Assembly (NCBI RefSeq): GCF_002285415.1
Contig: NZ_NSBU01000005.1
Coordinates: 1-64,000, forward strand
Origin: Actibacterium pelagium
GTDB taxonomy: Bacteria; Pseudomonadota; Alphaproteobacteria; Rhodobacterales; Rhodobacteraceae
DNA: 64,000 nucleotides
Direction of reading: 5' to 3'
Within the stretch, counting starts at the first letter, position 1. The number at the start of each line of letters is the position of its first letter. Shown in pieces: positions 20,238 to 24,339 of this stretch. The notes beneath the pieces are model-generated. The model was not told where the DNA came from, did no database searches, and worked only from the letters and a program-made list of their open reading frames with translations. The position numbers and the translations under genes were made by a program.

Positions 20238-20867
20238 ATGCATCCCAACCCCATCTTCCGTAACCGCCCCGATCAGTTGAACCTGTCTTTCGCCAAGGCG
20301 CGCGGGTTTGGCACGCTGGTCGTCTCGACAGCAGGCGCACCCCTGATCAGCCATGTGCCCTTTGTTCTGGATGAAATTGCGCGCACGGTGGGAATGCATC
20401 TTGTGCGCTCAAATCCCATAGCGCGGTTGGTCAAAGAGTCTACGCCAGCAACCGTGGCCGTGGTTGGCCCGCATTCCTACATCTCGCCCGATTGGTATGA
20501 GACCCCAGATCAAGTCCCCACTTGGAACTATGTCGCTGTGCATTTGACCGGGATGCTAGAGCCCCTGCCGCCGAAAGACCTGCGTCCGCATCTGGAAGAG
20601 CTGTCGCATCAGTTTGAAGAACAGCTCGCGCCGAAGCCGGAATGGCTGTTGGATAAAATGGGGGAAGAGCCCTTGGCCAAGATGATCCGCCAGATCCTGC
20701 CCTTCCGCCTGCGCATCGCGGACGTCGATGGCACGTGGAAGCTGAACCAGAACAAAACGGATGAGGTCCGCCTGCGCGCGGGGACGGCGGTTGCCGAACA
20801 TGGGATCGGCAACGCCTTGTCAGAACTGGCGGCGCTGATGGCAGAGCCGCCAGAGAAACAGGCTTAA
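20238..20867 (+). CDS. PaiB-type FMN-binding negative transcriptional regulator family protein
   Basis: A 209-residue protein with the PaiB split-barrel signature HSYISPDWYETPDQVPTWNY near residues 75-95 and PFRLRIADVDGTWKLNQNK near the C-terminus. PaiB of Bacillus affects sporulation and protease genes, but most members are uncharacterised flavin-binding proteins. The ATG at 20238 is chosen over an in-frame GTG at 20208. The stop overlaps the end of the convergent ribH gene by 4 nt. Confidence 0.85.
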   Translation: MHPNPIFRNRPDQLNLSFAKARGFGTLVVSTAGAPLISHVPFVLDEIARTVGMHLVRSNPIARLVKESTPATVAVVGPHSYISPDWYETPDQVPTWNYVAVHLTGMLEPLPPKDLRPHLEELSHQFEEQLAPKPEWLLDKMGEEPLAKMIRQILPFRLRIADVDGTWKLNQNKTDEVRLRAGTAVAEHGIGNALSELAALMAEPPEKQA

Positions 20868-21298
20868 GCCGCCAGCGAGGCGCGTGCTTTTCCAACCATT
20901 AGGGCTGCGCGGGCTGCCTCGCGGCCTTTTTCGACGAAATGGGCGCGGTAGATGGCGTTGTGATGATCGGTTTCCTGATACTGGTGCGGCGTCAGAGAGA
21001 CTGACAGGACCGGAACGCCACTATCAAGGCTGGCGCGCATCAAGCCGTCCACAACAGCTTGGGCGACGAAATCGTGGCGATAGATGCCCCCATCTACGAC
21101 GAAGGCGGCGGCTGCGACTGCACCATAGCGGCCAGTCTCGGCCAGATCACGGGCCAGAAGGGGCATTTCAAATGCGCCGGGAACGTCGAAAACATCGACC
21201 TGCTCGGCGGGAATGATTTCGGTAAAGCCCGCAAGGGCCTGATCGACGATATCTGCGTGCCAGTTGGCTTTGATGAACGCATATCGGGTGTGTGTCAT
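20864..21298 (-). CDS. ribH: 6,7-dimethyl-8-ribityllumazine synthase, RibH2 type
   Basis: A 144-residue lumazine synthase of the RibH2 class known from Brucella, shown by FIKANWHADIVD, the substrate loop DVPGAFEMPL, the motif VVDGGIYRHDFVA and VLSVSLTPHQY. It joins 5-amino-6-ribitylaminouracil and dihydroxybutanone phosphate in riboflavin synthesis. RibH2 enzymes are usually second copies, decameric and less active than RibH1; no other rib gene is near. AAGGAGAT precedes the ATG, and an FMN riboswitch sits about 75 nt upstream, so expression should fall when FMN is plentiful. Confidence 0.93.
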   Translation of the reverse strand: MTHTRYAFIKANWHADIVDQALAGFTEIIPAEQVDVFDVPGAFEMPLLARDLAETGRYGAVAAAAFVVDGGIYRHDFVAQAVVDGLMRASLDSGVPVLSVSLTPHQYQETDHHNAIYRAHFVEKGREAARAALMVGKARASLAA

Positions 21299-21371
21299 GG
21301 CTATCTCCTTCGGTTTGACACGTCACCCAAGGCGATAACGAACAGGAACCCGCCCGGAAGGCGCGCCCTGT

Positions 21372-21515
21372 CGTTCTCTTTCATCCGGACTGTAACCGTC
21401 GGCTCTGGCCTCTCACCAGATCTGCTGACCCTTTGCCGGGGCAAAGGCGCTCGCGGGCTGACGGGGCGTACCCCGTATACCGCCGGTGGGGAATTTCACC
21501 CCGCCCTGAGAACAG
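21372..21515 (-). ncRNA. FMN riboswitch (RFN element) controlling ribH
   Basis: Read on the minus strand, the conserved RFN blocks are in order: TCAGGGCGGGGTGAAATTCC, CCACCGGCGGTA, GTCAGCCCGCGAGCG, GGTCAGCAGATCTGGTGAGA, and GCCGACGGTTACAGTCCGGA ending in TGAAAGAGAA. The element lies wholly upstream of the ribH start. Control is most likely at translation or by premature termination in the roughly 75-nt linker. Confidence 0.95.
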
Positions 21516-21662
21516 CGACCTTGTCGCACTTCCCGTCAGAGACAGCAAGAGGGGTAAGCAGGCGGACCAAGGAGTGCCGCGGGGCTTTGCCAGCGCATGA
21601 TGCCGGTTTAGACTTGGGCGAGGATTCGGGATGAATTTGTTTTGAGACATTTTTTTAAACAA

Positions 21663-23222
21663 ATGAGACGTGCTTGGCTCGTCACGTTGTTTGGTGTGAT
21701 CGCTAGCGCAGCCAGCGCTGGCGAGCGCGTGGCACTGCTGATCGGGAATTCGATTTATGATCGGCCAGAGATGTCGTTGCGCAACCCCTCGAACGATGTA
21801 GATGCCTTGGGCGCGACGTTGCGGGCGCTGGGTTTCACTACCTACGAGGCCGTGGATCAGGACCTATCCGGAATGGAGGCCGCGTTAAGCGCTTTTGCGG
21901 ATCAGGCTAACGGTGCCGAGATGGCATTATTCTTTTATGCAGGACACGGGGTTCAAATCGGTGGCGATAACCTGCTGATCGGAACAGAATTGCAGGCGCT
22001 GGATACAGACATGGTGCGCCGCAGCTCTTTACCCATGTCGCGAGTCCGCGAAGCGCTGGCGGCTGCGAATCCCGAGATTGGAATCCTGATGCTGGACGCT
22101 TGCCGTAATAACCCTTTCAGCGATGCAGGACTTGTGGACAAGGGGTTGGTGCGAACACGGGGTGGCGTAGGTCTTCTGGTGGCCTATGCCACCGACCCGG
22201 GCAACGTGGCCTATGACGGCGTGGGTGAAAACAGCGTCTTTACCGAGGCACTTTTAAAACACCTGAGCACTCCGGGTATTGATCTTCGGCTGGTGCTAGG
22301 ACGTGTGCGCCAGCAGGTGGTTCTGGAAACCCGAGGCCAGCAAGTGCCATGGGTGGAGGAGGCGGTCTTGGGAGAGCACTATCTTGTGCCCGCTATCGCA
22401 ACGACCGCTGGTGAGGATCCTTTCAAGGCAGAGATTGATCGTTGGCGGCAGATTGCTGCCAGCACCGATACCGCAGATTTTCAGGACTATTTGATCGCGT
22501 TTCCCGACGGGATGTTCGCCTCTTTCGCATCCGACCGGATCAAAGCGCTTGTGAAGCCGGACAGAATGTCGGGCGAAGGCAACAGTCTGGGCCTGCTGGC
22601 CTCGTCCGACCCGACACAGGTGGCAGACGCGCTGACCGCGCTTGGTCTGTTGCCGTCTCAAAACCCCTTGACCCGCGCAGTTGAGGCCGATCTGGTGCCA
22701 GCGCTGGATAGCTATCGCGCGCAACTGCCTGACCCCGGTGGCGCCAGTGCGCAACAGCTGTTCACCGATGCCACTCGCGTGTCGATGTTCTTGGCTGCAA
22801 CGACCCTGCAACGTATCCGCACTGACATCGTTGCGTTGCGCAGCGTAGAGGGAACCCTTGGCATTGCCGAAGACGCCCTGAACAAGATACGTGACATCGC
22901 CGAGGCAAACGAGGCCGCCAAGCCGATCTTGGAGCAAGCAGAGAAGGATGTGGGCGACATCCGCCTTGCCCGTGCTGACATTCTGCGGCGGCTCGACAAC
23001 TCGCGCAGTTACTATGACGACATTCTCAAGCGGGCCGTGTCCTTTGTTCCGGAAGAGGCATCACCCGCATTGATTGGTGGCGTAGATCGCTCTCGGAATA
23101 TCGGGCAGACGAACCGACAGTTGCTGAGCGATGCCAATTTATTTTTGAAGCACGTCAAGGATTCTGACGAAGCCACTAAAGGAAGCTACTCATGGCTGAC
23201 CGACCTTATTTCCGAAAACTGA
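21663..23222 (+). CDS. Secreted caspase-like (peptidase C14) protein
   Basis: A 519-residue protein with a signal peptide (hydrophobic to about residue 19, GVIASAASA) followed by a caspase/metacaspase p20-like domain. It starts ERVALLIGNSIYD, with catalytic His H95 in FFYAGHGVQ and catalytic Cys C147 in MLDACRNN. The C-terminal 270 residues are helical with predicted coiled-coil character. It overlaps the next lipoprotein gene by 31 nt. Periplasmic caspase-fold proteins of this type are uncharacterised; Arg/Lys-specific proteolysis is known for some relatives. The start is uncertain: the ATG at 21663 lacks a strong SD, and a TTG at 21642 is in frame. Confidence 0.85.
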   Translation: MRRAWLVTLFGVIASAASAGERVALLIGNSIYDRPEMSLRNPSNDVDALGATLRALGFTTYEAVDQDLSGMEAALSAFADQANGAEMALFFYAGHGVQIGGDNLLIGTELQALDTDMVRRSSLPMSRVREALAAANPEIGILMLDACRNNPFSDAGLVDKGLVRTRGGVGLLVAYATDPGNVAYDGVGENSVFTEALLKHLSTPGIDLRLVLGRVRQQVVLETRGQQVPWVEEAVLGEHYLVPAIATTAGEDPFKAEIDRWRQIAASTDTADFQDYLIAFPDGMFASFASDRIKALVKPDRMSGEGNSLGLLASSDPTQVADALTALGLLPSQNPLTRAVEADLVPALDSYRAQLPDPGGASAQQLFTDATRVSMFLAATTLQRIRTDIVALRSVEGTLGIAEDALNKIRDIAEANEAAKPILEQAEKDVGDIRLARADILRRLDNSRSYYDDILKRAVSFVPEEASPALIGGVDRSRNIGQTNRQLLSDANLFLKHVKDSDEATKGSYSWLTDLISEN

Positions 23223-23905
23223 TTTCCGCGGCGCTTGTAGCCACTCTGGCGCTTTCGGCCTGTAACACGACAACCCCCGAGCCCGAGGCGAAGCCGGCTT
23301 TGACCATGGCGCAGAACGAACAACTTTTACGCCAGCAAGCGGAAGCTATGCAGAAGACAATACTGGAAGGCGCGATTGCCGGGGCTGCCGTTGGCGGTGG
23401 TGGAGGGTTTGTTCTTAGCGGTGGCAGCGGTGATAGCGCGCGTCGTGGGGCAAACTTTGGCCTGTTCGCCGGGGCGGCTGCAGGTACATATGTTGCCTTC
23501 ATTCAGCGAAAATATATTCGTCGTGAACGCCGGTTGGATGCCATCAAGGAAGACCTCGACAAGAACGCAATTGAAATGCAGACCACGATCAATGTGATGC
23601 GCGACGTGCTTGTCGTTCAGAAGGCCGAACTGGCGGCACTTCAGGCAAGGGCGGCGGCTGGTGAAGATGTGTCCGCAGACCTTGGGGCTGAAGTAACACA
23701 GGCACAGGCCAATCTGGCCGAGATGGAGAAGGCCATCAGCGGGGCCACGAACCGTCAGGTAGAGTTTGGAGAGGCACGTGGACTGACCCTCGCCGGAAAC
23801 GAGACATTGTCGCCGATTGATCCCGAATTGGCAGCCCTTTCTGAACAGATCGCGGCGATGAAAGCCATCGCACAAGACCTGTCACAATCCTTGGGAGAAG
23901 CATGA
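23192..23905 (+). CDS. Predicted lipoprotein with glycine-zipper and coiled coil, partner of caspase-like protein
   Basis: A 237-residue protein with a lipoprotein signal and lipobox LSAC (Cys near residue 24). A Gly/Ala-rich hydrophobic stretch (AIAGAAVGGGGGFVLSGG and FGLFAGAAAGTYVAF, residues about 62-103) resembles glycine-zipper membrane segments, and the rest forms long coiled-coil helices. It starts inside the caspase gene, at an ATG after AAAGGAAG, and its stop overlaps the next gene, so all three are coupled. The function is unknown; envelope-anchored scaffold or inhibitor are possibilities. Confidence 0.75.
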   Translation: MADRPYFRKLISAALVATLALSACNTTTPEPEAKPALTMAQNEQLLRQQAEAMQKTILEGAIAGAAVGGGGGFVLSGGSGDSARRGANFGLFAGAAAGTYVAFIQRKYIRRERRLDAIKEDLDKNAIEMQTTINVMRDVLVVQKAELAALQARAAAGEDVSADLGAEVTQAQANLAEMEKAISGATNRQVEFGEARGLTLAGNETLSPIDPELAALSEQIAAMKAIAQDLSQSLGEA

Positions 23906-24339
23906 TGCACTTGAAAGCTCTACTTCTTGCTGGTGCAGCCTTTGGCCTTCTAGGCTGCGTAACTAGCGACGATCCGTCAGAGGGCGGGTTTTTCAACGGT
24001 GTGTCGGGCATCAGCTCTGGCACCTATGAGGGCCGCATTGCCGAGCGTGAGCAATCAGTGGACGAGGCAGAGGCCCGGAACGAGGCTCTTGCAACCGAAC
24101 AGGCCCGCTTGTCCTCGCAGATTTCTTCGGCGCGAAGTGAGCTGGCCAAGCTGAAGCTGCGAATCCTGAACCAGCGAAACGCTGCAGGGTCCTTGGATGC
24201 AGGTACCGAGGCAAGGGTACAGTCCGTCCTAAATGCGCAACCGGCTGGGCGAACTCAATCTGAACATCTGGCCGCGCTGCGAAAGACGATCACAGACGCC
24301 AAAGCGTTGAGCGCAGACCTTGCCAAGTTGTCAGGCTAA
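23902..24339 (+). CDS. Small coiled-coil lipoprotein
   Basis: A 145-residue protein with lipobox LLGC (Cys near residue 19) followed by a predicted coiled coil over about residues 45-90 (repeated Glu/Ala/Leu heptads) and a helical C-terminus. It overlaps the preceding lipoprotein gene (ATG ATG over the stop). No known family is recognised. Its place makes it the third part of the caspase-lipoprotein module. Confidence 0.7.
   Translation: MMHLKALLLAGAAFGLLGCVTSDDPSEGGFFNGVSGISSGTYEGRIAEREQSVDEAEARNEALATEQARLSSQISSARSELAKLKLRILNQRNAAGSLDAGTEARVQSVLNAQPAGRTQSEHLAALRKTITDAKALSADLAKLSG

Follow-up and report, generated by a model that had tools for sequence, protein, structure and literature searches.

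Introduction

What might an exported caspase-fold protein do when its gene overlaps those of two lipoproteins? The question is raised by positions 21663-24339 of the window, a 64,000-nucleotide stretch of contig NZ_NSBU01000005.1 of Actibacterium pelagium, where three overlapping genes on the same strand encode a protein with a peptidase C14 domain (C14, 519 aa) and the lipoproteins LP1 (237 aa) and LP2 (145 aa). The genome assembly consists of 3.49 Mb in 7 contigs, and its relatives in the scans described below belong to the Roseobacter group. In Pseudomonas, outer-membrane damage acts through the TagQ-TagR sensor pair to activate both the H1 type VI secretion system (T6SS) and the PpkA kinase. 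Two articles describe the TagQRST-PpkA pathway as a sensor of outer-membrane damage (PMC6657622, PMC11881912), in which TagQ is required for recruiting periplasmic TagR (PMC6657622). The best reading of the sequence comparisons presented here is that the trio is a TagR-TagQ-LP2 unit with a caspase as its head instead of the FGE-like domain. A fuller proposal, which we somewhat favor, is that the trio is a domain-swapped envelope sensor of the TagQ/TagR type whose output domain, an Arg/Lys-specific protease, would control the T6SS. The features of the trio are as follows.

21663..23222, + strand: C14, exported caspase-fold protein, 519 aa, with signal peptide, C14 domain, helical linker and (probably) TagR-like helical tail
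21663..21719, + strand: predicted Sec signal peptide, C14 residues 1-19, judged by eye
21726..22382, + strand: caspase catalytic domain, C14 residues 22-240, from Pfam, MALT1 alignment and invariant residues
22749..23219, + strand: C-terminal helical tail, C14 residues 363-519, from profile homology to the tails of TagR-like FGE proteins
23192..23905, + strand: LP1, TagQ-like lipoprotein, 237 aa, with lipobox Cys24 (codon 23261-23263), glycine zipper and coiled coil
23902..24339, + strand: LP2, small coiled-coil lipoprotein, 145 aa, with lipobox Cys19 (codon 23956-23958)

The sequence-only reading of this stretch had described a secreted C14-like protein with a His95/Cys147 dyad that overlaps a glycine-zipper lipoprotein and a second, coiled-coil lipoprotein, and this description holds. 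The C14 reading frame extends from the ATG at 21663 to the stop at 23222, and Peptidase_C14 (Pfam PF00656) covers residues 22-233 (E=4.3e-36; 125.2 bits against a curated cut-off of 21.4). His95 is encoded at 21945-21947 (CAC) and Cys147 at 22101-22103 (TGC). The signal peptide was read by eye as MRRAWLVTLFGVIASAASA before GER, and a signal peptide is likewise seen, by the same means, in 17 of 17 intact named C14 orthologues. Exported bacterial caspase homologues are not unusual in themselves, since PMC3501461 reports one N-terminal helix, possibly a signal peptide, in 46 sequences of the metacaspase-only kind. The lipoboxes and coiled coils of LP1 and LP2 were also judged by eye; the glycine zipper of LP1 occupies about residues 60-98, and LP2 carries the motif DPxxGGFFxGVxGxxSGxYxxRI, which is conserved in the trio. 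Pfam gave no family above its cut-off for either lipoprotein. LP1 begins 31 bases before the end of C14, and LP2 overlaps LP1 by 4 bases. What the sequence shows is gene overlap, from which the translational linkage of the three genes is inferred.

Conservation of the trio

The family sample consists of 394 genomes, including that of the window, and an LP1 profile built on five rows matches 41 of them at E<=1e-3 and 13 strongly (E<1e-30). C14 and LP2 adjoin LP1 in all 13 genomes with a strong match. Nine loci were fetched from the 28 weaker matches (L156-L163 and L100); three are TagR-type clusters and six lack both TagR and C14. With the C14 tail as query, a named scan detected 18 loci in Ruegeria, Shimia, Cribrihabitans, Aliiruegeria, Halocynthiibacter, Defluviimonas and metagenome-assembled genomes (MAGs). 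All three genes are present in each of the 18, with LP2 of locus L141 interrupted by the contig end. Six of these loci were counted already in the family sample, which gives 25 trio assemblies from the Roseobacter group and its relatives, with the genes adjacent in all of them; the trio is thus conserved, as the sequence-only reading expected, and is no chance arrangement.

The order and strand C14-LP1-LP2 are kept in 20 of the 25 assemblies. In the other five (three Shimia, L138 and L081), LP1, or LP1 together with LP2, is found on the opposite strand and is still adjacent. The persistence of the neighborhood through rearrangement argues for a joint function. C14 orthologues occur in 24 other assemblies and are intact in 23. 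All three genes have dN/dS ratios of 0.05-0.15 in three of four Ruegeria pairs, two of these three with dS >1.3; the fourth pair is saturated and yields no value. Three Ruegeria loci (L132, L133 and L139; 9.8-14.6 kb) contain two more C14 genes downstream of the trio on the opposite strand.

LP1 and LP2 resemble the lipoproteins of TagR clusters

LP1 homologues were detected in 31 of 385 genomes by a class-level search, and 20 LP1 loci of up to 16 kb each were retrieved, L100 through the family search and the other 19 through this one. A TagR-like FGE protein is encoded directly before LP1 in 13 of the 20, and most of these 13 also have genes for TagS, TagT, VWA and SrfC-like proteins farther upstream (the Pfam names were tested on L083). 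The other seven have no TagR-like FGE protein before LP1, and two of them, L090 and L093, have a WD40-C14 gene instead. The same slot reads TagT-TagS-TagR(FGE)-LP1-LP2 in other Alphaproteobacteria versus C14-LP1-LP2 here. Four Pseudomonas-type loci with TagQ above the NF041250 cut-off have the order VWA-TagT-TagS-TagR-TagQ, which is also the order of the alphaproteobacterial TagR clusters; their VWA gene is probably the end of PpkA. The alphaproteobacterial TagR-like profile reaches position 537/538 in all four Pseudomonas-type TagR proteins.

Profile comparison by hhalign aligns the LP1 of the trio with TagR-linked LP1 at 99.8% over 227 columns, in a comparison that is not blind as the TagR-linked rows were found through LP1, two of them (L088 and L096) being over-long. 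The LP2 of the trio aligns with the LP2 of seven TagR clusters at 99.5% (E 1.8e-22; reversed control 14.1%), again not blind, these seven rows being those already matched by the trio LP2 profile. Short spurious matches of LP2 to LP1 occur as well (95.1% over 30 columns). On these alignments, LP1 and LP2 are firmly homologous to the lipoproteins of TagR clusters. LP1 aligns with TagQ itself at 96.9% over 124 columns, extending beyond the zipper. As controls, six unrelated glycine-zipper proteins chosen by pattern, which we take to be of YiaD type, reach 92.9% over 43 columns with the trio LP1, and reversed LP1 gives 48.8-57.5%. Homology of LP1 to TagQ is well supported by alignment length and synteny taken together.

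The TagQ model NF041250 scores LP1 at 26.1 bits against a cut-off of 300, a level that other glycine-zipper genes also reach. A match of LP1 to a single-sequence TagQ HMM (4.8e-6) was rejected as proof of homology, NF041250 matching 178 of 299 genomes.

A true TagR-type protein (E<1e-100) is absent from 11 of the 13 trio genomes of the family sample and present in two, the same two that have SrfC; the TagR search gives weak matches over the FGE domain only in seven others. TagT, a generic ATPase, is matched in the loci of two genomes only and in the window, more than 10 kb from the trio.

The C-terminal tail of C14

The comparison of the C14 tail with the tails of TagR-like proteins is blind, the TagR-like rows having been selected by their FGE protein. 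It gives a probability of 93.5 and a score of 49.8 over 129 columns that run to the C-terminus, while the best of 100 column shuffles scores 20.2 and the reversed control about 12. The other first-round alignment of the tail has a probability of 90.9. The TagR-like tails in turn match those of Pseudomonas-type TagR at 98.4, so that the link from C14 runs through the alphaproteobacterial TagR-like tails. An HMM of the tail matches C14 of all 31 trio loci, 18 of which were originally found through the tail, and none of 19 other C14-matching frames, including the two other C14 genes of the window genome.

The structural model of residues 257-519 has a pLDDT of 84.7 and a pTM of 0.82. Foldseek with this model returned nothing at E<=0.001, and VIA-align returned helical-hairpin matches only, with Z up to 9.1, under the level the tool regards as meaningful for helical models. 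On the profile evidence, the C14 tail is probably homologous to TagR-like tails. Since the tails match, the caspase domain would occupy the place of the FGE-like domain of TagR.

The caspase domain

The 24 intact copies, each from a different assembly, all have D45, H95, D145, C147, D185, W230, E232 and E233, and the His/Cys dyad that the sequence-only reading expected in orthologues is thus retained in every one of them. The copy of the 25th assembly (L079/L145, MAG G622) is disrupted and split into pieces. Twelve further C14 proteins, taken from the same loci and the same genome, also have the dyad and the acidic residues, and none of them has a Glu at 232 or 233. Alignment with MALT1 equates D45, D145 and D185 of C14 with MALT1 D365, D462 and E500 (numbering worked out by hand), which are the residues that hold the P1 arginine in MALT1 (PMC4626109). 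Because of this correspondence, C14 is predicted to prefer Arg/Lys at P1.

The AlphaFold model of the whole of C14 has a pLDDT of 75.3 and a pTM of 0.51, and its best PDB matches in Foldseek are MALT1 and caspases (probability 1.00). In the best tree of 39 C14 rows, the trio proteins are accounted for by 2 changes, versus 12.3 in shuffles; 1 change is enough in 50% of bootstraps, and the tool warned of long branches. The tree is compatible with a single origin of the trio C14 proteins and does not prove it.

The caspase fold may instead be a regulated binding domain and no protease, relaying a conformational signal to the kinase as TagR does. TagR activates the PpkA pathway in the accessible text of PMC6657622, where proteolysis is not mentioned, and degenerate bacterial caspase homologues are known, the dyad being kept in 75% in Alphaproteobacteria according to PMC3501461. 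Against this, the His, the Cys and the three acidic positions of S1 never vary among the 24 intact orthologues, and we regard the alternative as distinctly unlikely.

The filing of C14 as a defense protein was also considered and rejected. The model of the caspase associated with EACC1 conflict systems, NF047832, gives 68.2 bits, under its cut-off of 140, and the PADLOC 'caspase' match is weak (1.7e-7).

Association with type VI secretion

The sensor reading connects the trio with the T6SS. The TssC sheath gene (PF05943) is present in 12 of the 13 trio genomes versus 101 of the 394 family genomes (Fisher p=5e-7). In five of the 12, a TssC match and the trio share a contig and are less than 30 kb apart (8, 10, 24, 27 and 28 kb); in one they are 113 kb apart, and in six, including the window genome, TssC is on other contigs; several trio assemblies are fragmented into many contigs. 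In 9 of the 25 assemblies, TssM, TagF, PppA, TssA/B, TssH or a kinase of PpkA topology is encoded no farther than ~8 kb from the trio, or as far as the contig reaches where it ends sooner; the window and eight control loci of the family have no such gene. The query names Fha, TssK, TssL, TssM, TagF, PP2C and ClpB-type TssH of the window genome were checked by Pfam, and Fha, TagF and PP2C are present in its T6SS locus.

The PpkA-topology kinase consists of a cytosolic kinase domain, a single transmembrane segment at about residue 330 and a part in the periplasm; DUF4384 is present in L072. In the window genome, the kinase is encoded at C4:855429-857516 on the - strand. All 12 T6SS-positive trio genomes contain it; in G544, the kinase and periplasmic parts were found on the ends of different contigs. 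Across the family, it is present in 46 of 315 genomes (three by partial matches), and all 46 are T6SS-positive when compared by eye. The kinase is thus T6SS-wide, and the trio is an add-on in a subset. G622, the sole trio genome among the 13 that is negative for the T6SS sheath, is also the one with the broken C14 gene, and the only kinase found in it has no periplasmic part. Joint decay or an assembly error is a possible cause of the combined loss of an intact C14 and the sheath gene.

A 1514-aa protein of the window genome contains both VipA/TssB and VipB/TssC domains by Pfam (L155:1534-6078, G000:C4:221533-226077). This sheath fusion coexists with ordinary TssB and TssC, and many of the T6SS-positive genomes in the family have a second TssC match in a long frame, of at most about 1,780 aa.

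Several observations weigh against a sensor of the TagQ/TagR type. The glycine-zipper controls reach 98.4% to TagQ over 58 columns, so that only alignment length separates them from LP1; the NF041250 matches listed lie mostly over the glycine zipper, and the window-genome gene C4:268764-268925 outscores LP1 on this model (2.6e-6 vs 7.3e-6). Another alignment of the C14 tail has a lower probability of 78.9 (83.4 with four TagR tails added), and the C14 tail compared directly with the four Pseudomonas-type TagR tails is not significant (1.4). No TagS-like gene is found in 30 trio loci or in the window, and the alphaproteobacterial TagR-type loci, as fetched, show no T6SS genes. The trio is sparse (13 of 394 family genomes), only 10 of the 46 kinase-positive genomes carry it, and its co-occurrence with the T6SS may partly reflect shared ancestry. 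In the window genome, the trio is on contig C5 and the T6SS on C4, with no T6SS gene within the window. Neither a T6SS gene nor a PpkA-topology kinase lies within ~8 kb of 16 of the 25 trio loci, one of which is on a 4.9-kb contig.

The function assigned by the sequence-only reading is that of a periplasmic protease tethered or restrained by envelope lipoproteins, possibly for stress or death responses. The tether is backed by the homology of LP1 to TagQ, which TagR needs for its recruitment in Pseudomonas (PMC6657622). The free-standing stress or death protease fares less well, as the TagR-TagQ-LP2 homology, the T6SS co-occurrence and the nine neighborhoods favor control of a threonine-phosphorylation pathway of the T6SS; 'T6SS/envelope sensor' is a better frame than 'stress or death'. 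A lipoprotein-restrained caspase that serves general envelope stress or cell death independently of the T6SS would explain the 16 loci distant from T6SS genes and the invariant catalytic and S1 residues. It also agrees with the two full C14 genes without a tail in the window genome, from which it follows that C14 proteins serve other ends too. We consider it unlikely in view of the T6SS enrichment among trio genomes, the TssM, TagF, PppA and kinase neighborhoods, the homology to the TagQ-TagR module and the disruption of C14 in the only T6SS-negative trio genome.

T6SS carriers are presumably exposed to T6SS attack themselves. The caspase could then be a periplasmic defense device that destroys incoming effectors or kills the attacked cell, with the T6SS co-occurrence a mark of general warfare. 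Caspase-fold proteins are included in defense libraries, as the weak PADLOC match illustrates. The homology found here is to a sensor module and not to an effector module, and where T6SS genes lie nearby, regulators (TagF, PppA, the kinase) are among them, which renders a defense device very improbable.

Comparison with known systems

The trio has in common with the TagQRST system of the Pseudomonas aeruginosa H1-T6SS that a TagQ-like lipoprotein immediately follows an exported protein, and the C-terminal tails of the two exported proteins are probably related. Trio genomes with a T6SS likewise have TagF, a PppA-like PP2C, a T6SS FHA protein and a transmembrane Ser/Thr kinase. Unlike TagQRST, the trio has a caspase domain instead of the FGE-like domain and an additional LP2, lacks TagS and TagT beside it, and is often away from T6SS genes.

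The SrfC(PF10139)-Sel1-VWA-TagT-TagS-TagR-LP1-LP2 clusters (L083:9-9204; also L085, L088, L095 and L096) have LP1, LP2, the tail and the order TagR/C14-LP1-LP2 in common with the trio. They differ in their FGE-type head, in the presence of an ABC transporter, VWA and SrfC, and in having no T6SS genes in the fetched loci. These clusters are apparently TagQRST-like sensors used outside T6SS loci. In L100:7977-10842 (G553), LP1- and LP2-like genes adjoin the gene of an FHA/VWA protein, with neither TagR nor C14 adjacent; this protein is possibly a third partner in the TagR/C14 slot.

Orthocaspases and MALT1, also of family C14, resemble the trio protein in caspase fold, HC dyad and acidic S1 residues. 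The trio C14, in contrast, is Sec-exported by prediction and has a TagR-like tail and an invariant W230-x-E232-E233, and is associated with two lipoproteins. The WD40-C14 loci encode a caspase domain beside a TagQ-like or glycine-zipper protein, as the trio does. In these loci, however, C14 is at the C-terminus of the protein, the TagR-like tail is absent, no LP2 was found, and the proteins are distant in the C14 tree. The WD40-caspase proteins are ~1050 aa long (L090:4252-8534, L093:4318-8558 and L126:1570-5837); the TagQ-like neighbor has an SH3 domain in L090, and in L126 it is TagQ-like by NF041250 only and a glycine zipper by Pfam. This is a second kind of pairing of TagQ-like and caspase proteins, without the TagR-like tail.

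Divergent from the trio, an FMN riboswitch lies at 21369-21517 on the - strand (Rfam RF00050, 112.6 bits); the gene downstream of it, at 20864-21298, is lumazine-synthase-like by its sequence.

Proposed mechanism and significance

By analogy with TagQ-TagR, LP1 and LP2 would be lipoproteins, probably of the outer membrane, that grip C14 at its TagR-like C-terminal tail. Damage to the outer membrane, or its contact with an attacker, would alter the tether and activate the caspase head. The active head may then cut after Arg/Lys in a periplasmic target, for which the PpkA-topology kinase, with its periplasmic part, or an inhibitor of this kinase is the likeliest candidate, and the kinase, Fha and PppA would govern T6SS assembly. 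Its most specific form, in which T6SS retaliation is triggered proteolytically as damage frees the Arg/Lys caspase from a TagQ-type leash and the periplasmic domain of a PpkA-like kinase is cut, is conceivable but doubtful. If true, it would constitute a bacterial caspase relay that carries an envelope-damage signal across the inner membrane.

A literature search met no account that links TagQ or TagR with a caspase; subscription papers were mostly outside the search, so that the absence of such an account is unproven. In the accessible text of PMC7825059, which mentions TagQ, 'caspase' occurs in reference titles only, and PMC8109176, which contains both words, has DNA damage and immunity as its subject. 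For the step by which TagQ and TagR convert outer-membrane damage into kinase activation, PMC11881912 proposes an unknown signaling molecule; a natural variant in which a predicted protease takes the place of the TagR head makes a mechanism directly testable. For one group of the caspase homologues that bacteria export, the trio also points to a definite role in sensing the state of the envelope.

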